Positions 9,297 to 52,966 of a stretch of DNA of 64,000 nt are shown piece by piece. The notes under the pieces were generated by a model. It was not told the DNA's origin. It saw only the letters and a list, made by a program, of their open reading frames with translations, and made no database searches. The first letter of the stretch is position 1; each line of letters opens with the position of its first letter. The position numbers and the translations under genes were made by a program. The DNA comes from Halobellus rufus (GTDB lineage: Archaea; Halobacteriota; Halobacteria; Halobacteriales; Haloferacaceae): NCBI RefSeq assembly GCF_000739575.1, contig NZ_BBJO01000039.1:1-64000 (forward strand). Reading direction: 5' to 3'.

Positions 9297-9364
9297 TACA
9301 AGCCCTTCTGCACCCCACCCATTGAATATTCTGCTCTCTCGGCTTCTTGGGTTTGAGAAGGACA

Positions 9365-9372
9365 TTTATATC
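9365..9372 (+). promoter_or_regulatory. TATA box for the DUF4129 gene
   Basis: TTTATATC lies 19 bp before the GTG at 9384 and about 26 bp before an alternative in-frame GTG at 9393. The spacing to 9393 fits a leaderless haloarchaeal transcript, so that GTG could be the true start. Confidence 0.45.
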
Positions 9373-9383
9373 ACCGGAGTAAT

Positions 9384-11540
9384 GTGACGATTGTGCGTAC
9401 ACCGTCGGCTGTGGACGTTTGTCTTCTCGTAGGTATCTGTCTCATTTGCAGCGGAAGCGTTACCGGGTTGGTCGCAGACCCTTCGGCACCTCAGGGTGAT
9501 GGGGTGGTTGTTGATCAGAGACAGGGACAGGGACCACAGTTCCAGCAGAACACTCCTGAGACGACGCCGATCCGTCACGAAAATCCCGAGAACGCGACCG
9601 AGGATGATTCGACGGCTGCACTGCAAGAGGCGCTTGCATCACGGCTTGGCCAACGGCTGGAACGGAGTAGCATCAATTTGAGTGAAGGACAGTATGAGCA
9701 AGCAGAAGCGGCACTTGGCGATGAGTACACACAACTACTCAGCCAATATGCTGACGTTTCTGAGGATGGAGATGGAACCTCCTCTGCAGAATCGTTCGAG
9801 CAAGCTCGTACCCAACAACAAACTGTTTCTGAGGAACTCTCTGAATACCAACGTACGTACCAAGCGTATCGTGAGGCGAAAGCAGCCGGGAATGAGACAC
9901 GAACACGTGCACTGGCTCGGGAACTGCTTGCGTTACAGAACGGACTCGAAGAAAACGTATCGGAACTGAATGGCACCTATACCGAAATTCAAACCTCCAC
10001 TGAAGTAGACGTCTCAACGGAACGCGACCGTCTCCAGTCGGTATCACAGAACGTCTCAGAGACGAGCACAGAAATCAGATCGGCTGAATTCACGTCGACA
10101 CAACTGTCTGTGCGCACAGAAGAGCCACACGGCTCGTTTATTGAGCCGATCGAGATCACCGGAGCACTTCGAACAGCTGATGGAGAGCCAATCGAATCGA
10201 GCACAGTCGCCATTTCAGTAGGCGAGCAGACACACTCAGTCCAAACGACTGAGCGTGGCTCATTTACCCTTTCGTATCGGCCAGTTACACACCCCGTGGA
10301 CCTCGAGACGGTCACAGTGGCGTATGAACCATCCAACGCCTCGCTGTATCTCGGGGCGAACGACACAATCAACGTCTCCGTATCACAAACTACTGCGACG
10401 GTCCAATTACAGAATGTGTCCGACAGCGCCGGGTTCAACGATCGTGTTACAGTCCGTGGTTCCGTCAGCGTGAACGGGACACCAGTAGGAAATCTCCCGT
10501 TGGAGGTTCAGCTCGACGAGGAAACTCTCAGTACGGGCACAACGATGCCTAATGGTTCGTTTGTAATTGATGGCCGAGTTGATGAGTCGCCTGCTGTAGG
10601 AGCACAGCCGCTCACGATTACGTCGTCACAGCAAAATCGGAGTATTGCTGTCTCATCTGCCAATACGACACTCGATATTGTGCAATACGAATCGACGCTG
10701 ACAGCGACTACATCTCCGGACGGCAACGAATCCATGCTGCTGTCTGGGCGGCTGAGTGGGCCTGAGAATCGATCATTGCCGGAGAAGACCCTGACCGTAC
10801 AGGCACACAACGAAACCGTCACAGAGCTGTCTACCGGTGCAGACGGCACATATGAACGTTCGATTGCACTCTCCAGGTTACCAGAAAACGCTTCGACACT
10901 TACCGTTCAGTATGCAGCGACGGACTCGAATCTCAATTCGGCTTCTGCAACCGCGACAGTCCCGCACAGAATGACAGCATCGGAGAGTGGTATCCTGACG
11001 ACGCTCCAACAACCACTGCCTGTACTCGTGATCGTTGGGACACTGCTCAGCCTCTCCGGGGGTGGCGTCTATGCATATCGGCAGCGGCGGACGACTCAGT
11101 CACAAACTGCGGAATCAGAGCAGACGACGACGTCCCACGAAGATGACACAACAGCCGATCAACCCACCGACGCAGACACGGACGTCGCGCTTTCGTCAGC
11201 GACTGCGGCGTTAGATCGCGGTGAAACCGATCAGGCTGTCGTGATGGCTTACACAGCAATTCGTGCCCAAATCGCCGATCACTATTCGGTGCCAACGCAG
11301 GCAACGCACTGGCAGTTCTATACTGCTGCTGTCGACAAAGACCTCCCAGTTCGCGCTGAGTTCGAGGAGCTCACCACCCGGTATGAGCAGGCACAGTATG
11401 CACCGGAGCCAGTTTCTACAGCAACGGCAGAGACAACAATTGAGACGGCAGCGAATATCGCCGACGGTCTTGACCCACAAACCAGCAACGCAGATACGTC
11501 GAGAGCTGACGGTTCGGTGGCGGAGTTGCGAACCGACTGA
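9384..11540 (+). CDS. Secreted/membrane DUF4129 domain protein
   Basis: 718 residues: an N-terminal hydrophobic signal (about 8-28), then a Gln/Glu-rich coiled-coil region (about 70-215). Several Ig-like beta repeats follow (about 230-530), then a transmembrane helix (about 540-562) and a C-terminal cytoplasmic DUF4129 domain (about 595-700: ALDRGETDQAVVMAYTAI...THWQFY). DUF4129 commonly occurs beside MoxR/DUF58 genes and near transglutaminase-like proteins. It is followed closely by the DUF1616 gene (30 bp to its ATG), suggesting one operon. A start at GTG 9393 is possible. The function is inferred to be structural or sensory in the envelope. Confidence 0.82.
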   Translation: MTIVRTPSAVDVCLLVGICLICSGSVTGLVADPSAPQGDGVVVDQRQGQGPQFQQNTPETTPIRHENPENATEDDSTAALQEALASRLGQRLERSSINLSEGQYEQAEAALGDEYTQLLSQYADVSEDGDGTSSAESFEQARTQQQTVSEELSEYQRTYQAYREAKAAGNETRTRALARELLALQNGLEENVSELNGTYTEIQTSTEVDVSTERDRLQSVSQNVSETSTEIRSAEFTSTQLSVRTEEPHGSFIEPIEITGALRTADGEPIESSTVAISVGEQTHSVQTTERGSFTLSYRPVTHPVDLETVTVAYEPSNASLYLGANDTINVSVSQTTATVQLQNVSDSAGFNDRVTVRGSVSVNGTPVGNLPLEVQLDEETLSTGTTMPNGSFVIDGRVDESPAVGAQPLTITSSQQNRSIAVSSANTTLDIVQYESTLTATTSPDGNESMLLSGRLSGPENRSLPEKTLTVQAHNETVTELSTGADGTYERSIALSRLPENASTLTVQYAATDSNLNSASATATVPHRMTASESGILTTLQQPLPVLVIVGTLLSLSGGGVYAYRQRRTTQSQTAESEQTTTSHEDDTTADQPTDADTDVALSSATAALDRGETDQAVVMAYTAIRAQIADHYSVPTQATHWQFYTAAVDKDLPVRAEFEELTTRYEQAQYAPEPVSTATAETTIETAANIADGLDPQTSNADTSRADGSVAELRTD

Positions 11541-11570
11541 CTTTTTGTCCCCGATCAGTTGGGTGTGAGT

Positions 11571-12611
11571 ATGGCTTCCGGGCACGATTGGCGACTCTTA
11601 CTTCCGAAGCAACTTCGTCAGTTGCCCGCAGATCTCAGTGCGGTCCTCATTTGGGTGCTCGTGACGAACATTGCGGTGTTCACGCCAGGACTTCAAGAGA
11701 CGCCACTTCGGATCATCGTCGGGTTGCCGTTGGTCCTCTTCGTGCCGGGATATGCGTTGATTGCTGCGCTCTTTCCAGAATCCTCCACACCGATCGACGA
11801 CCAAGAGGAGACATCCAACACAGACGCCGAGAATACGGGACTCCGAGACAGTGGGATCGATGGGATCGAACGCGTCGCGTTATCCTTCGGCCTCAGTATC
11901 GCCGTTGTTCCCTTATTGGGACTGATACTGAATTTCACGCCATTCGGCATCCGATTAGTTCCGATTATGGTGTCGGTCAGTGGGTTCACGCTTCTGCTGA
12001 CGGCGATTGCTGCTCAACGACGCTGGGAACTCCCGGCTGATGAGCAATTCCACGTCCCATACACAGAGTGGATTGCAGCCGCTCGAAGCGAATTACTTGA
12101 ACCAGATACTCGTGGTGATGCAGCACTCAATATCTTACTTGTCATCAGTATTCTGCTCGCCGTTGGGAGCGTCGGGTACGCCGTCGCAGTCCCACAGCAA
12201 GGTGAGAGTTTCTCGGAGTTTTACTTGCTCACTGAAGATGAAGACGGCGAATTAGTCGCAGATGGTTATCCAACAAACTTCACGGTTGGAGAATCTCGCT
12301 CACTGATCGTCGGGATCGGCAATCAGGAACACGAACGCGCTGAATACACCGTGTTGGTCGAACTCCATCGAGTCGAAACGACGAATAATTCCACGACAGT
12401 TCTTGAACGAGAGCGACTGAATCGGTTTGACCCTGCGGTTGCGCACAATACCACGTGGCACAACCCACATACTGTCTCACCAACGATGACCGGCGAGCGA
12501 CTTCGCTTAACATACCTGCTGTATCAAGGTGAGCCACCGCAAAATCCGTCCGTTGAGTCCGCATATCGGGAAGTTCACTTGTGGGTGAACGTAACGAGTC
12601 AGACAGAGTAG
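11571..12611 (+). CDS. DUF1616 membrane protein
   Basis: 346 residues from the ATG at 11571 (an upstream TTG at 11559 is less likely). It has two N-terminal membrane helices around the LVLFVPGYALIAALFPE signature of DUF1616. Two more helices and a helix near residue 190 precede a C-terminal beta-rich domain likely outside the cell. DUF1616 proteins are archaeal envelope proteins of unknown role, often found with MoxR clusters or glycan genes. It lies directly after the DUF4129 gene in the same direction. No enzymatic motif is visible. Confidence 0.82.
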   Translation: MASGHDWRLLLPKQLRQLPADLSAVLIWVLVTNIAVFTPGLQETPLRIIVGLPLVLFVPGYALIAALFPESSTPIDDQEETSNTDAENTGLRDSGIDGIERVALSFGLSIAVVPLLGLILNFTPFGIRLVPIMVSVSGFTLLLTAIAAQRRWELPADEQFHVPYTEWIAAARSELLEPDTRGDAALNILLVISILLAVGSVGYAVAVPQQGESFSEFYLLTEDEDGELVADGYPTNFTVGESRSLIVGIGNQEHERAEYTVLVELHRVETTNNSTTVLERERLNRFDPAVAHNTTWHNPHTVSPTMTGERLRLTYLLYQGEPPQNPSVESAYREVHLWVNVTSQTE

Positions 12612-12642
12612 CTCACTGGCTGTGGCCTATGCTGAAAACAGT

Positions 12643-12650
12643 TAAATAGA
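12643..12650 (+). promoter_or_regulatory. TATA box of the ABC exporter operon
   Basis: GTTAAATA lies about 31 bp before the ATG at 12678, placing transcription start only a few bases before the start codon. This supports a separate promoter for the three-gene exporter operon and the chosen start. Confidence 0.5.
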
Positions 12651-12677
12651 TCCTGTCACTCACTTGATTCAGACACG

Positions 12678-13412
12678 ATGGAAGAAGCCACCCAGATGTC
12701 GCCCTCCACACAAACACCGGTGGTTTCCTGTGCTGATGTAACCCGACAATACACACGCGGGTCCAGCTCCCGGTTTTCACGCCGTTCACATCCGACAGTG
12801 ACGGCACTTGATGAGGTCTCAGTAGATATCTACCCCGGAGAGTTCGTCGGAATCGCTGGGCCAAGCGGCAGCGGGAAATCAACTTTGCTGCATCTGTTGG
12901 CGGGCTTGGATACACCGACTGGTGGGGACGTCACGCTTGCTGGGACAGAAACGACAGGCCTCTCCGAACAGCGTCGCGCTCGCCTCAGATTGGCTCACGT
13001 CGGCATCGTCTTCCAACACTTCTACCTCCTGCCGTCGATTTCCGCTCGGAGCAACGTTGCACTCCCACTCGTCGAAGAGGGAATCGGGACGGCAACGCGT
13101 CGTGAGAAGGCCGTTGAACTACTCGAAGAGGTCGGGTTAGCCGACCGCACCGAGCACAAGCCAGGCCAGTTGAGTGGTGGAGAGCAACAACGGGTTGCGA
13201 TTGCTCGTGCGCTCGTAACTGATCCATCCGTATTGATTGCAGACGAGCCAACAGGCGAACTCGATACCGCAACGGGCGAGCAGATCATTCGGATGCTGAA
13301 CAGACATACTGATGGGCGAGCTGTCATCGTCGCCTCCCACGACGAACAAGTGCTCGAACAGACGGACCGTGTAATTCGACTGCGGGACGGCCAAGTTGAA
13401 AACGATGGGTAG
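12678..13412 (+). CDS. MacB/LolD-type ABC transporter ATPase
   Basis: A 244-residue nucleotide-binding subunit with Walker A GPSGSGKST (about residue 60), Q-loop region VFQHFYLLPSIS, signature LSGGEQQRVAIARAL, Walker B VLIADEPTGELD and the switch His in VIVASHDEQ. The SARSNVALPL context and the pairing with two FtsX-like permeases place it in the MacB/LolD mechanotransmission class. Such systems move lipoproteins, peptides or envelope material rather than small solutes. The stop overlaps the next ATG by 8 bp. The cargo is unknown; its place inside the MoxR-DUF58 region suggests envelope work. Confidence 0.93.
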   Translation: MEEATQMSPSTQTPVVSCADVTRQYTRGSSSRFSRRSHPTVTALDEVSVDIYPGEFVGIAGPSGSGKSTLLHLLAGLDTPTGGDVTLAGTETTGLSEQRRARLRLAHVGIVFQHFYLLPSISARSNVALPLVEEGIGTATRREKAVELLEEVGLADRTEHKPGQLSGGEQQRVAIARALVTDPSVLIADEPTGELDTATGEQIIRMLNRHTDGRAVIVASHDEQVLEQTDRVIRLRDGQVENDG

Positions 13413-31708: not shown

Positions 31709-32956
31709 ATGTACCGTGATCATACGGTCGGCGTCGTTATCCCCGCGTACAACGAAGAGGGTTTCATCGGTGACGTGATCCGGGAGATGCCGGAGTACGT
31801 CGATCGGATGTATGTCGTCGACGACTGCTCCACGGACGGCACGTGGACAGAAGTGATAGAAGCTGCTCGCACTGATCGTGAGGCGCTCGGCCTTGACGAA
31901 CCCGCTGAAAAGGGACGCATCGCCGTCACCGACGGCGGTGAATCGCTTGCAGACCGCGCTATATGTCATAATATGATTGGTCGAGTTGTACCCATCAAGC
32001 ACAAGCAGAACCTTGGCGCTGGTGGGGCGATCAAAACGGGGTATTTGGCTGCGCGTGAGGAAGAGATGGACGTGACGGCAACTGTCGACGGCGATGGCCA
32101 AATGGATCTGTCCCAGATGAAGAAGTTGCTCAACCCCATCGTTGAAGGTAACGCCGATTACGCGAAAGGGAACCGGCTCCTGTACAAGGAGTATCGGAAA
32201 GAAATGCCGAAGTTCCGCTTTCTGGGGAACTCCATCCTGACGTTCCTCACGAAGATCGCTAGTGGGTACTGGAAGACGATGGATCCACAGAACGGGTACA
32301 CCGCAATCTCCGGATACGCATTGAATAACGTGGGAATTGAGACGATGTACGAATACTACGGCTACTGTAACGATCTCTTAGTGAAACTGAACACGAAGGG
32401 AATGCGCGTTGCCGACGTTGCGATGCCCGCCGTGTACGGTAACGAGGCCAGCAGTATCCAGTACTCGACATACATACGGAAGGTGAGCGCGATGCTGCTG
32501 CAGAACTTCCTGTGGCGGTTAAAGATGAAGTACCTTATGTTGGATTTCCACCCGCTGGCACTGTTCTACTTGTTTGGCGCAGCGATGGCTGGACTGGGAC
32601 TGCTTGGAGGTGGCTGGTCGCTGTTCGCGAAGGTCGTTCTCGGTGACCCGCTGTTCGTGCGGGCGACATCAAGTCTGTTGCTGTTCAGCGTCGGGAGTAT
32701 GTTCATTATGTTCGCGATGCTGTTCGATATGCAGGTGAATGAGAGTCAAGAGGTGCAGGACGAGAGTAGAATATGGAGATTATATTCACAATCCAGCACC
32801 CTGCTCATGTCCATCTATTCAGGAACGCTATTCAGGAACTCAAGGAAGAGGGACACCAAGTCTCTGTATACGCGCGTAACAAGGACATCGCGATCGAACT
32901 TCTCAAGGCTTATGACATTGACTACACTGTACTTGCTGGTGATGCTGACTCCTTAG
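31709..32956 (+). CDS. Family 2 glycosyltransferase (dolichol-phosphate sugar synthase-like) with aberrant C-terminus
   Basis: Starts VVIPAYNEEGFIGDVIREMP, with VVDDCSTDGT and TATVDGDGQMD (metal-binding DxD) and two C-terminal membrane helices near residues 285-345. This matches AglJ/DPM1-like transferases that load a sugar on dolichol phosphate. Normal relatives end just after a MLFDMQVN-type segment. Here the frame goes on from about 32750 and runs 184 bp inside the next gene, ending in a Ser/Thr/Leu-rich tail of about 70 residues with no family likeness. Base composition drops sharply at the same place. The native 3' end seems to have been replaced by recombination. The enzyme core is complete. 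Confidence 0.85.
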   Translation: MYRDHTVGVVIPAYNEEGFIGDVIREMPEYVDRMYVVDDCSTDGTWTEVIEAARTDREALGLDEPAEKGRIAVTDGGESLADRAICHNMIGRVVPIKHKQNLGAGGAIKTGYLAAREEEMDVTATVDGDGQMDLSQMKKLLNPIVEGNADYAKGNRLLYKEYRKEMPKFRFLGNSILTFLTKIASGYWKTMDPQNGYTAISGYALNNVGIETMYEYYGYCNDLLVKLNTKGMRVADVAMPAVYGNEASSIQYSTYIRKVSAMLLQNFLWRLKMKYLMLDFHPLALFYLFGAAMAGLGLLGGGWSLFAKVVLGDPLFVRATSSLLLFSVGSMFIMFAMLFDMQVNESQEVQDESRIWRLYSQSSTLLMSIYSGTLFRNSRKRDTKSLYTRVTRTSRSNFSRLMTLTTLYLLVMLTP

Positions 32957-33795
32957 GCAAACTGGCAGCTGTGCAAGCAAAATACGAATTTCGATTGGCT
33001 AAGGAAGCTTGGCGTATCAAACCTAATGTGATGGTTGCAATGGGTGAGCCCGCCGTCGCACATATCGCTAAACTTGTTGGCGCTCGTAGCCTCATCTTCA
33101 CTGATACGGAAATTGGGACTCTCCAGAACAAGCTCGCGTTTCCTTTCGCAGATCGGATCTATACTCCCGACTGCTATCAAGACAATATCGGACCGAAACA
33201 AGTCCGCTATCCTGGATATCACGAGCTTGCATATCTGCATCCCAATCGCTTTACGCCTGATCCCTCAGTTGTAGAGGGACTTGGAATTGATCCTAACGAA
33301 AAGTTCGTTGTACTTCGATTAGTAGCGTGGAACGCTGCACACGACGTCGGTCATAGCGGTTTTTCTGACCCTCAAGAAGTGGTTGATCAACTAGAATCCA
33401 CTGGTGCCCGTGTACTGGTCACTGCTGAGACCGACGTTGCCGATCAGTTGGACTCATACAGATTAGATATCTCTCCAGAAAACATTCATCACGTGCTTTA
33501 CTACTCGAATCTCTTTGTTGGGGAAAGTGCGACAATGGCTACCGAAAGTGCTGTACTTGGGACACCAGCGATTTTTGTCTCTTCTACAAGACGTGGCTAT
33601 ACCAATGAGTTGGAGGACAAATACCGGATGGTGTTTACTTATTCGGATGATGACCGGCACATAAAAGGAATCGTGAAGGCTGTAGAACTTCTTCGACAGA
33701 CAGACGATAAACAATGGAAGAAAAAGAGAAATGAAATACTTGATGAAAAAATCGATACTAGTGATTTTATCCTTGAGCAGGTTAAGAAGTGGTAA
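32773..33795 (+). CDS. DUF354 domain protein
   Basis: 340 residues beginning MEIIFTIQHPAHVHLFRNAI, the standard DUF354 opening. Typical blocks are AMGEPAVAHIAKLVGA, DRIYTPDCYQ, LRLVAWNAAHDVG and the late GESATMATESAVLGTPAIFVS. The family has a GT-B fold like UDP-GlcNAc 2-epimerase and occurs in archaeal polysaccharide clusters, but its reaction is not established. The start lies inside the preceding GT2 frame. It is AT-richer than the two genes to its left, so the mosaic border lies at its start. Confidence 0.88.
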   Translation: MEIIFTIQHPAHVHLFRNAIQELKEEGHQVSVYARNKDIAIELLKAYDIDYTVLAGDADSLGKLAAVQAKYEFRLAKEAWRIKPNVMVAMGEPAVAHIAKLVGARSLIFTDTEIGTLQNKLAFPFADRIYTPDCYQDNIGPKQVRYPGYHELAYLHPNRFTPDPSVVEGLGIDPNEKFVVLRLVAWNAAHDVGHSGFSDPQEVVDQLESTGARVLVTAETDVADQLDSYRLDISPENIHHVLYYSNLFVGESATMATESAVLGTPAIFVSSTRRGYTNELEDKYRMVFTYSDDDRHIKGIVKAVELLRQTDDKQWKKKRNEILDEKIDTSDFILEQVKKW

Positions 33796-38847: not shown

Positions 38848-40266
38848 ATGGAACTTCGTAAAACGACCCTTATTGTATTTATATCCAAAATCTTTGGCTC
38901 TATATTTACATTCATTGCCACTATTTATTTTGCTCGTCGCCTAGGGGCTAGCATATTAGGCCAGTATTATACAATAATAGCGTTGCTAGCTTGGCTAACA
39001 CTTGTTGGTGAGAGTGGAATATTAAACGCAATTCGAAAGAGGGTAAGTGAGAGGCAAGGACAATACGCCTACATCACCGCAGGTATAATCATTGTCACGG
39101 TTATTTCTATATCAACTGCAGTAATATTAATTATATTTCGAGATCTAATTAATCGTTACGTTGGAAGTAATGTTACATATCTCCTGACTATATTAGTGTT
39201 TTTCAGATTAATGGGTTCATTCATACAGGTTGCGCTAGATGGTCAGGATCTAGTACATATTTCAGGGATACTACAATCGTTTCGTCAAGCGGCCCAAACA
39301 GTCATACAGTTGCTCTTCATAATACTGGGGATTGGTCTTCTTGGCTTATTATATGGCATATTACTATCTCTGGTGATTACTATACCGTTGGGATTATACT
39401 TCCTAAAATTTAGGTTAGAAATGCCAAGAAAACGCCATATATACAGCTTAGTCGACTATGCTAAGTATTCTTGGCTCGGGCGAATTAAATCTAAATCGTT
39501 TAGACAATCAGACATAATTATTCTAGGTATGTTTGCATCATCGGAGACAGTCGGAATCTATTCAATTGGGTGGACGGTGGCTGCTTTTTTCCACTTTTTC
39601 AGTTCCTCGATAAGTAAATCTGTATTCCCTAGATTAAGTAATATTTCCAGCAATGGATCGGTAAACTCTTCAGCGGACATAATCACACTTTCGATGGGAT
39701 ACTCTGGGTTATTTGCATTTCCTGGTTTAGTTGGTGGATTTATTCTGCGGCATAAGCTTTTACAGGTATATGGGGCTGAATTTGTTAACGCTTCAGAAGT
39801 TCTTGTTATCTTGATTGGGTCTGTTCTTCTATATAGCTTCTATACCCAGTGTGTAAACGGATTAGCAGGTATCAACCGCCCAGATCTCTCTTTCAACTCG
39901 AATGCTGTGTTTATTACCTCAAATATAATTCTCAATCTCATTTTGGGATGGAAATTTGGGATGATCGGCGTTGCCACGGCATCTCTGATTTCGATACTTA
40001 TCGGACTTCTATTCGCCTATTGGACACTTTCTAAAATAGTAAGAATCAGTTTCCCATCTCGAATTATTATGAAACAGATAATTTCTTCAGTTATAATGGG
40101 GGCTGTTGTTTATATCCTAAGTATTTCTAATTTTGTTAGCGAGATTACCAACAATAATCTTCTGAATATAATTGCGTTGGTTTTAGTTGGGGCCTTAATT
40201 TATTTTACTATTCTTCTGTATATGTCCGAAGATTTAAGATCAGGACATTTAGACGGTATTTACTAA
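38848..40266 (+). CDS. Oligosaccharide flippase (Wzx/AglR-like)
   Basis: 472 residues with about 13-14 predicted membrane helices and few charged residues. It begins RKTTLIVFISKIFGSIFTFIATIYFARRLG, the usual opening of polysaccharide transport proteins of the MOP superfamily, with the late LVNPILGW-like segment SNIILNLILGWKFGMIGVATASLIS. It should flip a lipid-linked glycan across the membrane. It lies in the nonulosonic acid cassette, so its cargo may carry that sugar. Very AT-rich compared with the window ends. Confidence 0.9.
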   Translation: MELRKTTLIVFISKIFGSIFTFIATIYFARRLGASILGQYYTIIALLAWLTLVGESGILNAIRKRVSERQGQYAYITAGIIIVTVISISTAVILIIFRDLINRYVGSNVTYLLTILVFFRLMGSFIQVALDGQDLVHISGILQSFRQAAQTVIQLLFIILGIGLLGLLYGILLSLVITIPLGLYFLKFRLEMPRKRHIYSLVDYAKYSWLGRIKSKSFRQSDIIILGMFASSETVGIYSIGWTVAAFFHFFSSSISKSVFPRLSNISSNGSVNSSADIITLSMGYSGLFAFPGLVGGFILRHKLLQVYGAEFVNASEVLVILIGSVLLYSFYTQCVNGLAGINRPDLSFNSNAVFITSNIILNLILGWKFGMIGVATASLISILIGLLFAYWTLSKIVRISFPSRIIMKQIISSVIMGAVVYILSISNFVSEITNNNLLNIIALVLVGALIYFTILLYMSEDLRSGHLDGIY

Positions 40267-40532: not shown

Positions 40533-41711
40533 ATGTCTAACCGCGTAGCTGCAGTCGTTACATCTCGATCACAATACGCGCGGGTGAAAACTGCGCTTCA
40601 AGCACTAAATGACGATGACCGGATTGACTTTTATCTAATTGTCTCCGGGGGGGCTTTGGTTCACCGTTTCGGGGATATATCAGACATTATGGAAGATGCG
40701 GGATTGGAGATCGATAAAAAAATTCACACGCTGTTAGAAGCTGGTGAACCCGTCGCTCAAGCAAAAACAACGGGAATGGGGCTTGTTGAGTATGCGACAG
40801 CGTTTGAAGAGTTTAATCCAGATGTGATGTTGACCAGCGGTGATCGGCACGAAACAATGGCGAGTACACTTGCGGCATCGTATCTGAACATCCCTGTAGT
40901 TCACTTAGAGGGGGGAGAGGTCACCGGATCCATTGATGATAAAGTTCGCCACGCTACTACGAAGATGGCTGATTACCATCTGGTTTCAACTGATCGGAGT
41001 AAAAAAATTGTCCGACAGCTCGGTGAACCTGCTAATCGAATTTATCGGACTGGGTGTCCGTCGATAGAATTAGCTGAACAGATCATCCAAGAAGGAAGAG
41101 ATTCGTATGACCCGCAAACTGAGTATGGTGGGGTAGGAGATACGGTTGATGTTTCTCAAGATTATATTGTTGTTCAGTATCATCCACTACCCACAGAGTA
41201 TGAATCAAACTATGATAAGACGCAAGAACTGATCCGGGCTTACGAGCAATTAGATGTACAAGCATTCTGGTTCTGGCCCAATATGGATGCTGGTACTGAT
41301 CAGGTATCGAAAGCTATGCGAGAGTACCGTGAACAGCAAAATCCTGAGGGGGTTCGATTTTTCATTAGCCTCGATCCGAATGATTACCTGACGCTGGTTA
41401 AGAACGCTACGTGTATGGTGGGGAATTCGAGTGTCGGTATACGAGAGTGCTCTTACTTCGGTGTCTCGACAGTCAACATTGGGGAAAGACAGCAATCACG
41501 TGAGCGTGGCCCGAATGTTTTGGACGTTGACTGCAATGCCAATGAGATCGCTGCCGGGATCAGAACTCAACTACAGCAGGGGTCGTATCCTCAATCGACA
41601 ATCTACGGAAATGGGAATGCTGCACAGAAAATAACAGATACAATTGCTGAGCTCGAACCTGAGTTGAAGCCCCCAATGACGCCAGATTTACTGGGATACC
41701 ACGGAGAGTGA
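40533..41711 (+). CDS. neuC: UDP-GlcNAc 2-epimerase, hydrolysing (NeuC/LegG family)
   Basis: 392 residues from the ATG at 40533, where the family's opening MSNRVAAVVTSRSQYARVK begins; a longer frame from 40452 is discarded. GT-B epimerase motifs: TSGDRHETMA, HLEGGEVTGSIDDKVRHATTKMADYH, RIYRTGCPSIE and MVGNSSVGIRECS. The enzyme releases UDP and inverts C2, giving ManNAc (NeuC) or the 2,4-diacetamido analogue (LegG). These two cannot be told apart by eye. No bacillosamine-forming dehydratase or aminotransferase is seen in the window, which slightly favours ManNAc. It is the first of three tightly spaced genes neuC-neuA-neuB. Confidence 0.9.
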   Translation: MSNRVAAVVTSRSQYARVKTALQALNDDDRIDFYLIVSGGALVHRFGDISDIMEDAGLEIDKKIHTLLEAGEPVAQAKTTGMGLVEYATAFEEFNPDVMLTSGDRHETMASTLAASYLNIPVVHLEGGEVTGSIDDKVRHATTKMADYHLVSTDRSKKIVRQLGEPANRIYRTGCPSIELAEQIIQEGRDSYDPQTEYGGVGDTVDVSQDYIVVQYHPLPTEYESNYDKTQELIRAYEQLDVQAFWFWPNMDAGTDQVSKAMREYREQQNPEGVRFFISLDPNDYLTLVKNATCMVGNSSVGIRECSYFGVSTVNIGERQQSRERGPNVLDVDCNANEIAAGIRTQLQQGSYPQSTIYGNGNAAQKITDTIAELEPELKPPMTPDLLGYHGE

Positions 41712-41716
41712 TACTA

Positions 41717-42409
41717 ATGACAGAATCAAACGTTCTCGGGCTAATCCCCGCTCGCGGTGGGTCGAAAGGAGTTCCACGTAAGAACATCTCTGAATTAGCT
41801 GGGACCCCGCTTATTACTCACTCAATCCAAGCAGGACGTGAGGCTACTGCAATCGATTCAGTAGTTGTTTCTACTGATGACGAAGATATTGCCGCAGTAG
41901 CAGAATCGCACGGGGCGAGAGTCCCCTTTATGCGTCCGGATGAATTGGCAACTGATGAGGCTCCGACAGCACCTGTAATCACCCATACCTTGGAAACACT
42001 TCACGACGCGGGTGAAGAGTACGATGCGTTTGTGTTACTCCAGCCAACGTCACCGCTTCGGACAGCAACCCATATTGACGAATCATACTCGCTTTACGAA
42101 GAATCTGACGCAGACTCTGTAATTTCAGTGTATCCGACGTACGATATCCGTCTGGAACGCACGCCCGAGGGTGCCAAGAAGTTGAATTATACTGACGCAG
42201 CCAAACGAAGACAGGATCGAGCCCCAGAATACGTGATTAACGGCGCGATATACGTAAACGGTGTTGAACAATTTCTTCAGACAAAGGAGACGATCGCAGG
42301 CATAACGAAAATGTACGAGATGACGGAACGAGAGTCAGTAGATATTGACACACCGTTTGATCTATGGTTGGCCGAACAAATTCTAACGGAGTGGACGACA
42401 TATGATTGA
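41717..42409 (+). CDS. neuA: CMP-nonulosonic acid synthetase (NeuA/LegF family)
   Basis: 230 residues from the ATG at 41717. The nucleotidyltransferase motif GLIPARGGSKGVPRKNISEL, then VVVSTDDEDIAAVAESHGA, LLQPTSPLRTATHIDES and a late YVNGVEQF/VDIDTPFDLWLAE tail are the standard blocks of acylneuraminate cytidylyltransferases. It couples CTP and a nonulosonic acid to give the CMP-sugar. It starts 5 bp after neuC stops and overlaps neuB by 8 bp, so the three are cotranscribed. The specific sugar (Neu5Ac, legionaminic or other) is not shown. Confidence 0.92.
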   Translation: MTESNVLGLIPARGGSKGVPRKNISELAGTPLITHSIQAGREATAIDSVVVSTDDEDIAAVAESHGARVPFMRPDELATDEAPTAPVITHTLETLHDAGEEYDAFVLLQPTSPLRTATHIDESYSLYEESDADSVISVYPTYDIRLERTPEGAKKLNYTDAAKRRQDRAPEYVINGAIYVNGVEQFLQTKETIAGITKMYEMTERESVDIDTPFDLWLAEQILTEWTTYD

Positions 42410-43424
42410 AATTGAAGGCACGAAGATCGGAACCGGACACCGTCCGTATATTATTGCTGAAGTTGGGATTAACGCTCGAAACGATCTGACACTTGCGAAA
42501 CGGTTCATAGAGATAGCTGCAGATGCTGGCGCAGATGCGGTTAAATTCCAGACGCACATCGCAGACGCAGAGATGGTTGAGTCGGAGATGAGAACAATCG
42601 ATGCAGGTGAAGTATATGATACAGTAGCGGACTGTGAATGGTCAATTGACGAGCATCAAGAACTTCAGTCTCACGCAGAAATGCATAATGTGACGTTCCT
42701 TTCCACATCGTTTTCGACAGAGGCGGTCGATATACTGGACGAAATTGACGTTCCGGCGATTAAGATTGGATCAGGTGAAATGAATAACCGGGAGTTGCTG
42801 GAATATGCTGCCAGTACAGGCAAGCCGTTGTTAGTCTCAACAGGTATGAATACTCTTGATGAGATCAAAGCAACTTGTGAGTTTTTGGATAACGTAGCAA
42901 GTCAGTATGCACTTTTTTATTGTGTTTCAGCATATCCGACAACGGCTGCCGATTTTGATTTTAAAACAATCGAGACTTTGGAAGAGATGGGAAATGTGCC
43001 TGTTGGATTTTCGGATCACTCGACTGGGGTTGAAGCAGCAAAAGTAGCTATCGGGAACGGTGCAGCGCTTATCGAGAAGCACTTCACGCTTGATCGACGC
43101 CTCCCTGGACCTGATCAAGAAGTCTCTATCGAACCCAAGGAATTGAGCGACTTGTGTGAATTTGCCAGATTGTATGATTGGACTTCAAGCAAGAAGGACG
43201 AATTGGATGACGAAGAAGTTGAAATAAAGCAGTGGGCTCAGCATAGTATTGTTACGACACAATATATTGAACAGGGTGAACAACTGACAAAAGAAAATAT
43301 CACTACGAAACGACCTGGTACAGGGGTTCCTGCAGATGAGTTCTTTAACGTGTTAGGGAAACAGGTGGAAACATCGATTTCGGGTGATGTCGTAATTAAC
43401 AACGAGGATATTAGGTGGGACTGA
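42402..43424 (+). CDS. neuB: Nonulosonic acid synthase (NeuB family)
   Basis: 340 residues with the TIM-barrel blocks of sialic acid synthase: IIAEVGINARNDLTLAKR, DAVKFQTH, IKIGSGEMNNRELLEY, LVSTGMNTLDEI, GFSDHSTGVEAAKVA and IEKHFTLDRRLPGPDQ. A C-terminal antifreeze-type SAF domain (about 285-338) is present. It condenses PEP with ManNAc or an analogue. It overlaps neuA by 8 bp. In archaea, legionaminic acid synthesis by a homologous set is known from Halorubrum. No ancillary leg genes are adjacent here. The stop is followed by a transposase relic on the other strand. Confidence 0.93.
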   Translation: MIEIEGTKIGTGHRPYIIAEVGINARNDLTLAKRFIEIAADAGADAVKFQTHIADAEMVESEMRTIDAGEVYDTVADCEWSIDEHQELQSHAEMHNVTFLSTSFSTEAVDILDEIDVPAIKIGSGEMNNRELLEYAASTGKPLLVSTGMNTLDEIKATCEFLDNVASQYALFYCVSAYPTTAADFDFKTIETLEEMGNVPVGFSDHSTGVEAAKVAIGNGAALIEKHFTLDRRLPGPDQEVSIEPKELSDLCEFARLYDWTSSKKDELDDEEVEIKQWAQHSIVTTQYIEQGEQLTKENITTKRPGTGVPADEFFNVLGKQVETSISGDVVINNEDIRWD

Positions 43425-43442: not shown

Positions 43443-44050
43443 TCATAGCTTGAGCTTCCAACGTCTTGGATTGTCTCTTCGTTCGTAGTTAGTGATTGCA
43501 ATGACGACCCAGAGACACAGCCCAATGCACACTTCTGTTCGTACGTGAACGCGCCCGAGGTCGCAGCCCTTGCAGGAATCGTTGGTTCGCTTGACTCCTG
43601 TATACCGGTCGTATGTCTCTTCTAGGATGGATTGCCCGATTTGAACGTCTTTTCTATGTTTCTCAACACGGTCTTTGACTCTGTACTTGATATCTTTCCG
43701 TTCGTTAGTGTTGCGCGAGTTATATTGGGCGACTCGCACGGCCTCCTGCTGGATACAGAGTCGTGTCAGCAAAAATGTCGTAGGCTGGCCTCCAAGCATC
43801 CAGATTAGCGTTTTAACGTCAAGCACGTCACTCGGACGCGCATCGCCGTCTCTTGAGATGTCTGCTTGGCTAGTGTGAAATTTGTCGCCAGAATCTTTGC
43901 GCCGGTTGAGACGATTGTACAGCCGAATCGGTAGATAAATAAACTGATTCTATGGGAAGGCGAACGCTTGCAACCAATTTTCAGCGGTACTCGGCTCAAT
44001 ATAGATGAACGTATACCGAGACAGTATCTGAAAGTGATAATCAAGGTAGA
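43443..44050 (-). pseudogene. IS-type transposase C-terminal remnant with terminal inverted-repeat-like end
   Basis: The minus-strand frame ends CKGCDLGRVHVRTEVCIGLC, then LWVVIAITNYERRDNPRR, resembling the C-terminal block of ISH-type DDE transposases, with SILEETYDRYTGVKRTN before it. The catalytic core is absent. The stretch to about 44050 holds an end-like sequence (AACGCTTGCAACCAATTTTC near 43963), matched imperfectly at about 50571. It borders the nonulosonic cassette. Confidence 0.55.
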
Positions 44051-44688: not shown

Positions 44689-46095
44689 TCATCGCTTTAC
44701 TCGCTGTGTGTCACGAATTCGAACCAACTCCTCGAGAATATTCGCAACTGAATCCGACTTGAAAAACCGCTCGTGATCAAATTGGTTCGTGGCGCTCGAC
44801 CCCAACTGTCTGGCCAGCTCGTCAATGTCCCTGACCATCGAAGCTGTCCCATCTTCCACGAGGGGCTGGAGCACGTCTGCGTCGTCCGCCTCGAACACGA
44901 ACGTCTGGAGATCGAAACAGAGCCCTTCGTACACCGCCGTCGATCCGACGCCGATCTGTGCGCTCGATTCCGCGAAGAGCCGGTAGAGTGGCGGCTCGGA
45001 CTCGTCGATTATCTGTATATCTGACTCTACAAGCCAAGGATATTCAATCTCCCACCGATCGTACTCGCCCGGATGCAGTTTGTAGACAACCTCGTGATCG
45101 ACCCTATCGTCTTCGTGAACCTTCAAGGCGAACTGCGAGAGTTCGCGACCGATCGTTCCCTGTGAAATGAACAGGAGCTGTTCAGACGGTTCTATATCGT
45201 CGTATCTGTCAAGTTGCTCTTCAAGATACGGGTAGCCGACAGGGATTATGCGGTCGTCGGGAATCGGAAACCGAGTGTTCTCGTTCCAGAACGCGCCAAA
45301 CGTGAGGAGGTAATCGGGAAACGTTGTCTTGATCTTGTCGTCTGGATAGGAGTATCCGAAGTGGTGATCGTGGATTACGCCGTGCTGGAGTTCGACGACT
45401 GGAATTTCCTTTCGTTTACAGGCCTCGATGAGCGTTTTATTTTCATATGAGACGAGGACGACCACCACCTCTGGATTAACTCGTTCCAATAGTCGTTCGT
45501 ACCATGGAAGCGTTATGTTCCGGATATGGAGTGCTTCTCGAGCTTCTAAGACGATATCGACCTCGACGTCGAAGCGTCGCCGAATCTCCGCTTCGACATC
45601 TCGAAGTTGGGAGATGATGTCGTCGGGGAGCGATGGAGAGCGAAGACCGAGTTTCTGTTGGAGAGTTCCTCCATATTTTATGAGTTCAAGATAGCGGAGG
45701 TTTTCCGTCTTGGCAGGAATCCGGTGGGACAGGAGGTATGGCATCTCCAAGTGGATGTAGTCGAGTTTGCCCTGTTCGTGGATCGGATCGCAGTAGATAT
45801 CCCACCAATATCCGTCCTCCTCGAGTTTTCTGCGTTGATGACCAATAAAGAGGAAGTTATGTTCGCCAGTGAAATACGGATTTCTGTGAATGATGTTTTT
45901 CAGCCATAATCCGAAGCCGTGGACGTAGTCTTTCAATTTGTCTTTCTGTGTGTGTGCTTGGCCGCGGCCTTTTTTTTGGGCGATCTCTCGGAATACGCTG
46001 ATGCGTATTCGTTCCCAGAGGAATGTCTGATTGATCTGTACTGAAAATAGGTCTAGTTCTTTTTCAAGCAACTCGAATTTATATTTAATATTCAT
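44689..46095 (-). CDS. GT-B-type transferase, candidate nonulosonic acid or capsule transferase
   Basis: 468 residues starting MNIKYKFELLEKELDLF. The first 200 residues are helical and basic. The second half has a GT-B pattern: VELQHGVIHDHHFGYSYP, DYLLTFGAFWNE, LLFISQGTIGRELSQFA, the HP motif VVYKLHPGEYDRW, and SSAQIGVGSTAVYEGLCF. An HP pair and a Ser-rich motif before a late helix recur in bacterial sialyltransferases and Kdo transferases (capsule families), whose donors are CMP-sugars. With neuABC next door, a CMP-nonulosonate donor is a reasonable inference, not proven. AT content is lower than in its minus-strand partners. Confidence 0.6.
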   Translation of the reverse strand: MNIKYKFELLEKELDLFSVQINQTFLWERIRISVFREIAQKKGRGQAHTQKDKLKDYVHGFGLWLKNIIHRNPYFTGEHNFLFIGHQRRKLEEDGYWWDIYCDPIHEQGKLDYIHLEMPYLLSHRIPAKTENLRYLELIKYGGTLQQKLGLRSPSLPDDIISQLRDVEAEIRRRFDVEVDIVLEAREALHIRNITLPWYERLLERVNPEVVVVLVSYENKTLIEACKRKEIPVVELQHGVIHDHHFGYSYPDDKIKTTFPDYLLTFGAFWNENTRFPIPDDRIIPVGYPYLEEQLDRYDDIEPSEQLLFISQGTIGRELSQFALKVHEDDRVDHEVVYKLHPGEYDRWEIEYPWLVESDIQIIDESEPPLYRLFAESSAQIGVGSTAVYEGLCFDLQTFVFEADDADVLQPLVEDGTASMVRDIDELARQLGSSATNQFDHERFFKSDSVANILEELVRIRDTQRVKR

Positions 46096-47763
46096 ATGAC
46101 CACTTACATTTACTAGTTGGTATCCGAGGGAAATTGTGCTCTTTTATGTTTTTCATAGTTTTCTATGTCTCGTTTGTGAATACCTCTGTGGGATGAATTC
46201 CTGCGATCGATTCCTTCGAGACATCACGAGGTAATGTTGAGCTGGTCTGAAGAATAACCTTATCTTTGATTCTAACTCTAGGAAGAGTTATCACACGTAA
46301 TTCTATCCAGAAGTCATTATAAATTGTAGTATCACACTCTAGACGTATGTTACTGCAGGAATGGTCCTGCCCATAGTCATATTGTAACTTTGAGCCATTA
46401 TGGATCAGCCGTTTCTGAATTTAACCCGTTAGAAAGAATACTCCGAACATCGGAAAATGGTCTTGTGTTTCCATATATTACAAGTGCTTTTACTTATCAA
46501 AATTTAATTACTTATTGGATGACATTTTATCTTAGAAATTGACGACAGCTTCGTCCGCTGAAAATTCAGCATAGTTTTGAAAATCCTTTTTTACGCCGTC
46601 GCAAGGGTCATCACCCTCGATGAATAGTACATTAACCCCGTTTCCGGAAATGCTCTGTTAGTCTCATTGATCACATCTGAGGATCTGGATAGCTCTTGAC
46701 AAGGATCATTTTGTTTCGGTCAACAAAATGCTTTCGCAGTTTTTCACGCTCTAAATGATAAATATCAACGTTCACTACGTCACAGTTGAAATTCCGACAC
46801 CAAAGATATAGTTTTCTACCCCTCGCCGTACCAATCTCCAACCACGACTGCGCTCGTACAGCGAAGCAGAGTGAGCGCTTCACAACCAAATTCAAAGTTC
46901 GGTCATAGAGGAATGATTATAGAGGGTATCGTCGATTCTGACGTTGTGCGTGTGGTCGTACGGAGGAAGACACGGCGGTTGATCAGTGGTCTGATCCTGA
47001 AGTCTCGTAATCTTTTACGAAGAGATTGCTTGTCATAGCCGTTATTGACGGCGAAAGATCACATCGCCCGCATTTTAGTGGTCGATCTACTCGGCAAGAT
47101 CAGCGTCGCTTTTTCCCGATGAGTTGATCGAGCTTCTGAACACGGTAGCTGAATCGCTGGCAGTAGTGGTGTGATCGCTGCCAAGCGTTCGTAGAACGTG
47201 ATGTCGATTGCGCCGTGCTCAGGAAGATCGTACAGCTGCGCCGACTGACGCGGCAGCACTCGACAGACGCTCATACTGATTCGGTCGAACGCCTTAGACG
47301 ACTGGACGGCGACAATGATAGGCGGCTGAAGCCAATCCCCTCGGTTATTTCCAGTATCTGTTTGAGCAGGTCAATCGTCATCTAATAAGATGTGTGGAGA
47401 AACCCGGAGACTATGGAGAGAAACGAGGGCGTAGTCGGTGGATCTGCTGCCCCGGAAGGCGGAGGATTTGCCTCGATCGCCAGTAACTCTTTGAGCAACC
47501 GGCACAAATTCGCCGAGTAAGCAGGATATTTGGGTCGTATACAACTGAAGTCTCTCGCATCAACTCCATTGATTTAGCGATATTCAGCTGCTGTATTCGA
47601 TTCGACATACTACTGAGTGTTAGCCGGCACTGAGCAACTGCCCGCTAGTCAATATAATAGGCTGACCCACAACCGACCTACAGTAGAAAGCCGGACTATG
47701 TTATAGTTGTTAAACTGTAATCTAACTCTACTTCGAGTTATATTTGATATACCCCTCATAATA
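46096..47763. other. 1.7-kb intergenic stretch with degraded transposase
   Basis: Only decayed mobile DNA is recognisable (see the remnant at 46680-47608). The first 580 bp are AT-rich and without visible genes. Confidence 0.5.
46680..47608 (-). pseudogene. Heavily decayed IS5-type (ISH) transposase
   Basis: Pieces in several minus-strand frames follow the order of an ISH transposase: DLPEHGAIDITFYERLAA (before the first catalytic Asp region), then the C-terminal RSLCFAVRAQSWLEIGTARG with LYLWCRNFNCDVVNV. Many frameshifts and stops separate them. The C-terminal block is the same region preserved at 29750-30168, so related insertions sit at both sides of the island. Confidence 0.5.
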
Positions 47764-48327
47764 TTAGTGGAAACTCCCTTCCGATTTTAGTTTGTTGTAA
47801 TGTTCCATATCCCGGTACCGAATTATTTCAGCCGGATTTCCACCTACGATCGCGCCCTTAGGAACATCAGAAACGACTGTAGCACCTGCTTGGATAATTG
47901 CCCCTTCCTCAACCTTCACACCAGGAATTACAGTTACTTCGGCGCCAAACCATACATTGTCCCCGATATGTACATCTTTATTTATGTAAGTATTGCCATA
48001 CGGAATTGCATCTCCCCGATCAAAATTATGATTTTGTGCAATTATCCGGCACGAAGGGCCTGAATGGAAATTGTCTCCGATTGTAACTTTACCACCCCCA
48101 GAGATGTTCATTCCGTTAAAATGGACATTGCTCCCAATATGTGTGTTTGATGATACGTAGCTTTTATGATTCACCATTAGACCATCTTTTACCTCCTCTG
48201 CGGTTAGCTTAATTAGAGTGGTGTAGTATAGTTTGATAGCCTTCCTTCGTTTGTTCATAATTGCATTATACACATATTTTATGAATGTTATAATAACAGT
48301 CCGAATTTCTTGACTCTTCATAACCAT
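47764..48327 (-). CDS. Hexapeptide-repeat acetyltransferase
   Basis: 187 residues. After a hydrophobic N-terminal helix come left-handed beta-helix repeats (SNTHIGSNVHFNGM, GKVTIGDNFHSG, DVHIGDNVWFGAEVTVIPGVKVEEGAIIQAGATVV) and the family end VPKGAIVGGNPAEIIRYR. Catalytic His is probably in IIAQNHNFDRG. Such enzymes O- or N-acetylate sugars; NeuD-like or LPS O-acetyltransferases are similar. It lies in the minus-strand group with the CMAH-like gene and may acetylate the nonulosonic sugar or another residue of the glycan. Very AT-rich. Confidence 0.86.
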   Translation of the reverse strand: MVMKSQEIRTVIITFIKYVYNAIMNKRRKAIKLYYTTLIKLTAEEVKDGLMVNHKSYVSSNTHIGSNVHFNGMNISGGGKVTIGDNFHSGPSCRIIAQNHNFDRGDAIPYGNTYINKDVHIGDNVWFGAEVTVIPGVKVEEGAIIQAGATVVSDVPKGAIVGGNPAEIIRYRDMEHYNKLKSEGSFH

Positions 48328-50639: not shown

Positions 50640-52517
50640 TTAATAGCTAACAATATGTGAATTTGACACTCTCGCTTCCAATTCATCAACGAGTTGTTGG
50701 GCTTGGTCAGGATTTAGACCATGGATTCGAGCAGCCTCGATGATGTCTTCTCCAATTCCCTGCGGGCAACCGGCACAGTGCAGGCCATATGTTGCGAGAA
50801 TATCTTGAATATCTTCTTTTTCCACTAAGTCAGCTATCGTCGTGCCTGTGAGTTCAGTCTCAATATCGTATCGATCAGCGATACGCATAGTGTCATTACG
50901 TGCTTCCCAAGGTGCGTGTAGAAGACGCCAAAACTCAAGGTTGTACTCATCGGGATGACGGTCAAAATCACACCAATATCCGATATGTATATCATCCCAC
51001 GATCGGTCATTTCGGACTACATACTGCACCAGTTCGACTGGACACGACATACTGACGTGGTTTTCTGCCTCAAATTCTCCAATTGAGACAGGTCCATCAG
51101 TTATCAGATATTCAACATCACCATTGGTAATATGAATTATTGAGTTTAGATTCTTGTCCTCACCAGTTAGTGAGAGGGTTAGTGCGAAATCTTCAATTTT
51201 AGACACTAATTCGGAATCATTTAACGATTCGAAGTATGCTTCCAGCTCATTATGTGTCAAATCAATCGATTTATTCACAACGGGTTCCTGCGATTCAAAG
51301 GTGTTTTGAAGGTACTGTTCTTTGAATTCCTCGTCAAAGAACTGTTCTCGGTTCGGTCGCCGGTCAACCCTGTCATTTTGGCCATACCAAACTTCTCCCG
51401 GTAGGAGATCTAGGACAGTCACTTTGTGGTCATCAAGATATTCCACAACGTCGGATGGTCGGTTCTTTTCCATCAGATCCCGATACCGATTATGCTTGGG
51501 TTGAATGAGCTCAAAGAATTTGGCAAAGGGAAGGAAATAGTCGGCATCAAACATATCTACCAGCTGTTCACACTGTCGGAGGCACTGTTCATTTCGCTCC
51601 TTAATCATCTGCTTCTTATGTTCTACATCAAGGTGACTCCACGTAATTGGATATCCTGACGCACCAAAAGCAAATCCAGCAGCTATTAGATCGGCGTCTG
51701 GAATCGCTCTATTAACTTTCCAGTTGACTCCTGCGTCATTAAAATTTAGAATCTTGAACCCGCCACAATTCAGTGCGAGAATGCTGTCGTTCCATGTTGA
51801 ATTCGATTTGAAACAGACGGCTTCCACATCATCTGCAAGTTCATACGGCGTGTCCGTCGGTAAGCTATGGACGTTCTCAAAACCTATATCGTGGAGTCGG
51901 GTAGACAAACGCCTATAATTAAGCTCAGGGACATAAATCGGTGTCTCATTATGGAAGTGGTCAAGAGTTCGAGGGTGGAGATGATCTGGATGCTCGTGAG
52001 TAATCCAAATGGCGTCTGTTTCTGATGTTACAGCGGTGATATCACAAGTAGGGGGAGGGTATTGAGTCCAAGAGTCAAGAAACGCTGGACCATCAAGCCA
52101 AGGGTCAGTTACGAGTCTGAATCCGTTGTATTCTATTGATAATGTAGCGTGTGATAGTAGATTGATTCTTGGGGGTAGAGATTTATCATTCGATACGTTG
52201 AAATCTAATGTTGCGTCTACTTGAGGAAGGTCAGCATAGAGGTGACCATCTTGATGATTCAAATCATAAGTAGATAATGACTCGTTTGGGACTGTCGTCG
52301 AGTCTCCTGTCTCAGGATCGAACTCCCACTGATGTCGTGGACAACGAAGACACTCTTCATTGGCCACTTCAACAACACTTCCTTGGTGGGGACACTCTGA
52401 TGAGAAAATAATTGGATCACCATCGGGGTTCCGACTGATAATATATTCTCGTCCACTAATCTTCACAGACTGCGGTAAGTTCTTAAGAAGCGAATCCGGT
52501 CCGATACGAGTGCTCAT
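50640..52517 (-). CDS. CMP-sialic acid hydroxylase (CMAH)-like Rieske protein with DUF1858-like C-terminus
   Basis: 625 residues from the ATG at 52517. The N-terminal Rieske [2Fe-2S] domain has Cys42-x-His44 and Cys59-x2-His62. A metallo-beta-lactamase-type domain follows with TDPWLDGPAFLDSW and THEHPDHLHPRTL (His174-x-His176-x-Asp178-His179). These line up with mouse CMAH blocks FDPWLIGPAF, ISHLHSDHLSYPTL, ILNTVDC, GGASGFPMTFSG, PFAGYF and IRHVVKNGLLWDELYIG, in order along the whole length. CMAH turns CMP-Neu5Ac into CMP-Neu5Gc with an external electron donor. Beyond the usual end comes a DUF1858-like domain with LHCAGCP (Cys581, Cys584). It stands in the same island as neuABC. The substrate is inferred. 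Confidence 0.85.
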   Translation of the reverse strand: MSTRIGPDSLLKNLPQSVKISGREYIISRNPDGDPIIFSSECPHQGSVVEVANEECLRCPRHQWEFDPETGDSTTVPNESLSTYDLNHQDGHLYADLPQVDATLDFNVSNDKSLPPRINLLSHATLSIEYNGFRLVTDPWLDGPAFLDSWTQYPPPTCDITAVTSETDAIWITHEHPDHLHPRTLDHFHNETPIYVPELNYRRLSTRLHDIGFENVHSLPTDTPYELADDVEAVCFKSNSTWNDSILALNCGGFKILNFNDAGVNWKVNRAIPDADLIAAGFAFGASGYPITWSHLDVEHKKQMIKERNEQCLRQCEQLVDMFDADYFLPFAKFFELIQPKHNRYRDLMEKNRPSDVVEYLDDHKVTVLDLLPGEVWYGQNDRVDRRPNREQFFDEEFKEQYLQNTFESQEPVVNKSIDLTHNELEAYFESLNDSELVSKIEDFALTLSLTGEDKNLNSIIHITNGDVEYLITDGPVSIGEFEAENHVSMSCPVELVQYVVRNDRSWDDIHIGYWCDFDRHPDEYNLEFWRLLHAPWEARNDTMRIADRYDIETELTGTTIADLVEKEDIQDILATYGLHCAGCPQGIGEDIIEAARIHGLNPDQAQQLVDELEARVSNSHIVSY

Positions 52518-52966
52518 TCTTGGATGGAGCAAAGAATTCAGTTACAATTATTCTTTGGGAAGTCTCCAAAGCCGTGAACGACGTAGGCATAGTTCACGGT
52601 CCATCTGACCTCAAACCAGTTAGGGATCTGCGGACGGTTTTCATATGTCATATAAACCGGCCGAAATAGAGACTGAATTACTCGGCGGTGACTACTAAAA
52701 TGAATGACCAAATTCAAATCTGAATTTGAGAATTCAGGACCATTTACCGAGGACTGTAAAGCGCTTCGGTCAGCCTTGATCGGACGATATTCGGCAGCAG
52801 ACTCCGGACAAACGATCACAACGACTCACCACACAGTTTCTCTACCCCATAGATGATGTTGTGATAAGATGGACAGCGTTCTCTCATCAGTACATAATTT
52901 CTCTGATAGAATTGTGTCATAACGTTGCTAACCAACTAATAGCGTGAAACTCGAAGCAGGAACACA
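52518..52966. other. Intergenic stretch at the right border of the glycan island
   Basis: A minus-strand frame (52538-52819, ending RWTVNYAYVVHGFGDFPKNN) is open but lacks a recognised family; it could be a relic of a longer gene. GC rises sharply to the right of about 52950, marking the end of the island. Confidence 0.4.

Follow-up and report, generated by a model that had tools for sequence, protein, structure and literature searches.

The stretch of DNA analyzed here (64,000 nucleotides from Halobellus rufus, in the following called the window) carries on its (+) strand three consecutive genes for nonulosonic acid synthesis and activation: neuC (40533..41711), coding for a hydrolysing UDP-GlcNAc 2-epimerase (TIGR03568, 350.7 bits with a cut-off of 235.9), neuA (41708..42409), coding for a CMP-nonulosonate synthetase (PF02348, 2.8e-22; TIGR03584, 3.2e-47, below the cut-off of that model), and neuB (42402..43424), coding for a nonulosonate synthase (PF03102, 2.4e-70; TIGR03569, 310 bits, below its cut-off). 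On the (-) strand there is an intact open reading frame with an ATG start codon and a length of 468 amino acids (44692..46095, the stop codon extending to 44689), which codes for the candidate CMP-nonulosonate transferase. As described in the initial annotation of this DNA, the gene faces neuC-neuA-neuB (40533-43424) in convergent orientation across a decayed transposase gene. This relic (about 43467-44014, (-) strand) was delimited with tblastn by its identity of 50-53% to transposases in the loci L077, L087, and L027. Intact transposases in relatives are up to 53% identical to it, and a 72% identical DNA copy of the relic is present elsewhere in the genome (G000).

A second decayed stretch (46096-47763) separates the transferase gene from an acyltransferase gene at 47764 and holds the remnant of a hexapeptide acyltransferase (about 46133-46366) together with transposase scraps. 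Upstream of neuC a Wzx-type flippase is encoded (38848..40266, (+) strand; PF01943, 2.6e-13), which is not specific to genomes with NeuB and would likely export a lipid-linked glycan. Further upstream in the locus lies the gene of a DUF354 (PF04007) protein (32773-33795, (+) strand) with a weak match to BFO_1060, a second GT-B-like protein. Adjoining the glycan locus, a single protein (50640-52532, (-) strand) combines a Rieske domain, a metallo-beta-lactamase fold and DUF1858, which is a striking combination.

No homolog of LegB or PseB scoring above the cut-off was found anywhere in the assembly, which is 95% complete; the best match reached 51 bits, compared with 323 bits for the protein of locus L025. 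Since NeuC, NeuA, and NeuB are present in the window and no LegB or PseB homolog passes the cut-off, the nonulosonate of this locus is most likely Neu5Ac or a close relative.

Fold and conserved residues of the candidate transferase

The open reading frame is under purifying selection, with a dN/dS of 0.13-0.14 relative to its two closest homologs. Searches against Pfam and NCBIfam did not assign the protein to any family, in agreement with the earlier remark that no close family could be named. When the PDB was searched by sequence, neither the protein nor its A1 profile gave a meaningful match, and the broader A3 profile retrieved only UDP-GlcNAc 2-epimerases (E 0.004). The family was without a match in the plasmid and phage collections, PHROGs gave no useful match, and the hits in a library of viral folds were limited to an epimerase and glycosyltransferases of a generic kind. 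Homologs are encoded in 21 of 197 relatives and in 42 of 391 genomes of the haloarchaeal class, fragments being counted.

Several members of the family weakly match DUF6716 as well as BFO_1060 (NF046086) and surf_polysacc (TIGR04396). The similarity to the latter two models is C-terminal and reaches at best 33.5 bits, compared with cut-offs of 200 and 125; the window protein itself matches neither. We rejected BFO_1060 as a proof of nonulosonate transferase function, the model having 365 positions compared with the 445 amino acids of GtfS and the DUF354 protein of the window matching it weakly too. Two very divergent members (L094:10959-12368(-) and L098:5758-7572(-)), which are 14-17% identical to the window protein and are encoded beside complete neuC-neuA-neuB genes, score 53-90 bits on TIGR04396/BFO_1060, above the matches of the main family.

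An AlphaFold2 model computed from the homolog alignment (pLDDT 90.3, pTM 0.90) displays a GT-B fold, so that the protein is predicted to be built from the two facing Rossmann-like domains of this glycosyltransferase superfamily, as the initial annotation had supposed. The full-length model superimposes over residues 77-467 with many GT-B enzymes at Z 16-19. With Foldseek and VIA the UDP-GlcNAc 2-epimerases rank first, followed by MurG, MGD1, and TarL among many other GT-B enzymes; the top match is 1f6d (16% identity, Z 19.1, 4.2 Å over 318 residues). When profiles were compared, that of the candidate family matched the NeuC profile with an E value of 4e-7 and a probability of 93%, confined to residues 199-464. 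Among the fold matches listed for the full model and for the C-terminal domain the sialyltransferase families GT38, GT52, and GT80 are absent and the matches are generic GT-B enzymes; these families were also not matched in a Pfam search of 19 members nor in the PDB sequence search. When only the donor domain was searched, CMP and CDP users (TagF, KpsC 6mgb, WaaA and the capsule multienzyme 8a0m/8a0c solved with CMP) came up mixed with UDP and dTDP users, in a result crowded by receptor entries carrying a glycogen-synthase fusion domain. As judged from the predicted model, the fold and profile comparisons would define the fold and the superfamily, not the donor.

TagF and TarL being among the fold matches, the protein might be a CDP-glycerol or CDP-ribitol phosphotransferase, and the divergent relative in L098 indeed scores 46.5 bits (3.3e-12) on PF04464, over the cut-off of 22.1. 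The window protein, however, does not match PF04464, only one of 19 members does so weakly (E 0.0029), and such a function leaves the tie to NeuB described below unexplained. We regard it as hardly probable at all. A confident match to a family using UDP or CDP-glycerol donors had been named at the outset as evidence against a CMP donor. The window protein is free of such a match, although one divergent relative passes the PF04464 cut-off and the nearest folds are those of epimerases. The sequence matches place the family in a broad GT-B group, of which PF04464 and the epimerases are part as well.

The HP motif LHPGEYDRW (residues 340-348, 45052..45078, (-) strand) is followed by the Ser-rich motif SSAQIGVGSTAVYEG (residues 377-391, 44923..44967, (-) strand), in the order first noted and with conservation across 45 homologs: H341-P342, S385, and E390 are invariant (45/45) and T386 is found in 44 of 45. 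This conservation and the purifying selection imply that the motif pair is not there by chance. Q237, G239, G267, G287, and S311 are likewise invariant in the alignment of 19 homologs and in its extension to 45 members. Q237 and G239 belong to a QHG motif (residues 237-239, 45379..45387, (-) strand), whose H238, present in 44 of 45 members, is a candidate active-site His. Less conserved is the D/E-D/E-G-like motif EDGYWWD (residues 93-99, 45799..45819, (-) strand). EDG occupies positions 93-95 in most haloarchaeal members, with D94 in 34 and G95 in 33 of 41 members, and is missing in the most divergent members of the 45-member extension; D99 is conserved more than D94 and G95.

The motif pair had been taken as a sign of a sialyl or Kdo transferase. 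The NeuC protein encoded next door has an invariant HP motif too, together with GNSSVGIRE, and the pair of HP and S/T...E is therefore not specific to sialyltransferases. Since the pair is also present in GT-B enzymes of other kinds, and since conservation of the D/E-D/E-G motif is partial, we dropped the argument from the motifs alone. In epimerase-type GT-B enzymes a Glu holds the ribose of UDP. E390 aligns with this residue in NeuC, which suggests a ribose contact for E390, and S385/T386 may contact the phosphate.

The best fold matches being NeuC and WecB (PF02350; Z about 19 at 4.2 Å over 318 residues), we also considered that the protein is not a transferase and acts as a NeuC/LegG/PseG-like epimerase or hydrolase of nonulosonate synthesis. 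Some loci would have room for such an enzyme: in the 20 kb read of L032, L042, and L082, for example, neuA and neuB are seen without a NeuC or a PseG. The window, however, has its own complete NeuC, and LegG is present in L025 and PseG in L026, so that this function would be redundant in those loci. In addition, the identity to NeuC/WecB is 12-18%, the window protein matches neither PF02350 nor TIGR03568, and the profile match to NeuC is limited to residues 199-464. An epimerase or hydrolase function is thus very improbable in our view.

Association with NeuB across genomes and pathways

The co-occurrence with nonulosonate genes, which the initial annotation had proposed as a check, was analyzed in two overlapping samples (197 relatives and 391 genomes of the haloarchaeal class), NeuB being scored as a match to PF03102. 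Among the relatives NeuB is present in 19 of 20 genomes bearing the family, compared with 38 of 197 overall (p about 5e-15; one genome with a 28-residue fragment of the family is left out of this count), and the one family-bearing genome without NeuB, G055, is an assembly of 62% completeness. In the class all 37 genomes with an intact member possess NeuB, compared with 78 of 391 overall (p 2.4e-30). These genome-level p-values ignore shared ancestry. At the genus level, which allows for ancestry only in part, the 23 genera with the family all fall inside the 42 of 86 genera with NeuB (p 9e-10). The near-exclusive co-occurrence goes along with physical clustering: neuB lies less than 14 kb away on the same contig in 34 of the 37 genomes, mostly at a distance of a few kilobases, 38 kb away in one and on another contig in two. 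In G244 the remnants of the family gene and of neuB are found side by side. Two controls from the window locus, the Wzx flippase (p 0.48) and a 663-aa membrane protein (p 0.83), show no association with NeuB.

The family accompanies different nonulosonate pathways. In the window and in L027, L028, L031, and L035 it is found with NeuC, NeuA, and NeuB only, in L025 with LegB/LegC and a formyltransferase, and in L026, L038, and L044 with PseG and SpsF. Outside the haloarchaeal class, in the same phylum, seven loci gave matches, two of them weak (L131 and L133); neuB or a Leg cluster is located within 10 kb in six of the seven, four of these six also carry neuA, and the seventh is a contig of 5.7 kb. 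In one outside-class locus, L128, the family gene is located 148 bp upstream of the gene of the oligosaccharyltransferase AglB on the same strand (9226-13236(+)), an arrangement which suggests co-transcription of the family gene with N-glycosylation. AglB is also present in L027 and L031, and its proximity suggests that the transferase is tied to N-glycosylation.

In the first 22 loci, which were selected by the family (22/22), the next most recurrent transferase cluster, a GT4-like one, is present in nine. A sulfatase-like gene recurs in eight of these loci (L024, L025, L026 and five others), about 10 kb or less from the transferase gene.

A gene could also track NeuB by adding another sugar of the same glycan. 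The main rival to a nonulosonate transferase is indeed a glycosyltransferase using a UDP-activated hexose or HexNAc, which would build the acceptor next to the nonulosonate or elongate from it. The nearest folds belong to UDP users such as the UDP-GlcNAc 2-epimerases and MurG, and the match between the profile of the family and that of the window's NeuC type (E 4e-7) points in the same direction; both stand against the CMP reading. In favor of the rival, E390 is aligned with the Glu binding the ribose of UDP. The family is, however, retained in loci of the Neu, Leg, and Pse types that differ in their other glycosyltransferases, in haloarchaea and in other archaea. A common acceptor-building sugar is therefore less likely than one nonulosonate step, and we consider a UDP-sugar transferase improbable.

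The family is absent from about half of the genomes with NeuB and is consequently not the sole solution for the attachment of nonulosonates in these genomes. Some haloarchaeal genomes without the family encode related proteins close to neuB (L099:4620-6017(-), L103:15901-17301(+), L100:3256-4593(+), and L097:13717-15087(-)). Three tested proteins of this set match PF05159 (KpsS/Capsule_synth), and such related proteins are also encoded in the family-positive loci L024 and L040. These KpsS-like proteins near neuB may be an alternative nonulosonate transferase.

Proposed function and relation to characterized transferases

A function as CMP-nonulosonate transferase would, we propose, explain why a single transferase family goes with NeuB in different lineages and with different types of pathway, and the two controls do not. 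It is likely, in our assessment, that the window protein has this activity and represents an uncharacterized archaeal GT-B family, the CMP donor being what we infer. The earlier suggestion of a CMP donor and of an archaeal sialyltransferase-like class thus gains weight from the strong tie to the genes of CMP-nonulosonate synthesis, and for the donor itself it stays a proposal.

The protein would be a cytoplasmic GT-B enzyme moving nonulosonic acid from the CMP donor onto a lipid-linked surface glycan or N-glycan. At the window locus this sugar would most likely be of the Neu5Ac type, made by NeuC and NeuB and activated by NeuA, and it would probably cap the glycan before the neighboring flippase exports it. 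The C-terminal domain would bind the donor, with H341 of the HP motif and S385/T386 stabilizing the phosphate of CMP and with the ribose held by E390. The catalytic base would be either acidic (D94 or D99) or H238. We infer in this scheme that CMP is the leaving group, and likewise the identity of the nonulosonate, of its acceptor and of the catalytic base, the type of linkage, and the stage at which the enzyme acts.

This assignment of residues resembles that in the polysialyltransferase MhPST, where the phosphate of CMP is bound by H291 (HP motif) together with S339 and T340 and the ribose by E323, and where E153 from the D/E-D/E-G motif serves as the base (PMC5517516). Both are GT-B enzymes in which an S-T pair follows the His of the HP motif, 48 residues later in MhPST and 44 residues later here. 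The ribose Glu of MhPST, however, precedes the S-T pair, whereas the invariant E390 of the archaeal family comes after it. More generally, the HP motif and the subsequent S-S/T pair of GT38, GT52, and GT80 (MhPST, PmST1) are shared, though not specific, and the D/E-D/E-G motif is not invariant in the archaeal family.

The nearest characterized comparators, known to us by description, are KpsS1 of GT118 (PMC12887879) and GtfS of Tannerella forsythia (PMC6388019). GtfS and TFUB4_00887 are pseudaminic and legionaminic acid transferases (PMC6388019). They are like the archaeal protein in their length of about 440-470 amino acids, their description as GT-B enzymes (PMC6120980), their location in a CMP-nonulosonate cluster, the HP motif, and an S-layer protein glycan. 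By description only, they differ in having DXD and D/E-D/E-G motifs, in acting on an O-glycan and in being bacterial. The KpsC/KpsS-type Kdo and pseudaminic acid transferases (GT99, GT107, and GT118; PF05159) are GT-B enzymes with CMP-ulosonate donors too, and KpsC 6mgb is among the donor-domain fold matches, but the window protein does not match PF05159.

A more far-reaching proposal seems to us evenly balanced between right and wrong. The proteins could constitute a family of their own at the CAZy level, made up of archaeal CMP-nonulosonate transferases. Apart from a lone GT29-like sequence identified previously (PMC5811610), these would be the first in Archaea; they would use Neu-, Leg-, or Pse-type donors depending on the species and would have spread via the transfer of whole nonulosonate cassettes, the donor of the window protein being CMP-Neu5Ac itself.

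In Halorubrum sp. PV6, legionaminic acid was reported in 2018 as part of an archaeal N-glycan, its transferase yet to be identified (PMC6137143). The family gene of L025 stands beside the genes LegC-LegB-LegF-LegG-formyltransferase-NeuD-x-LegI, the same order as that of the legionaminic acid genes HrrPV6_1046-1053 of PV6 (PMC6137143), the two being compared by gene order alone. For the attachment of sialic-acid-like nine-carbon sugars to archaeal surface glycans, the family described here is a strong candidate. It offers a concrete candidate for the missing archaeal legionaminic acid transferase, with an association tested against controls and with conserved residues to mutate. If the assignment is true, the archaeal nonulosonate pathway would be completed and a salt-tolerant transferase gained. 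In PV6, legionaminic acid is also the capping sugar on a viral spike protein and apparently takes part in virus binding, so that the enzyme would bear on virus-host recognition as well.
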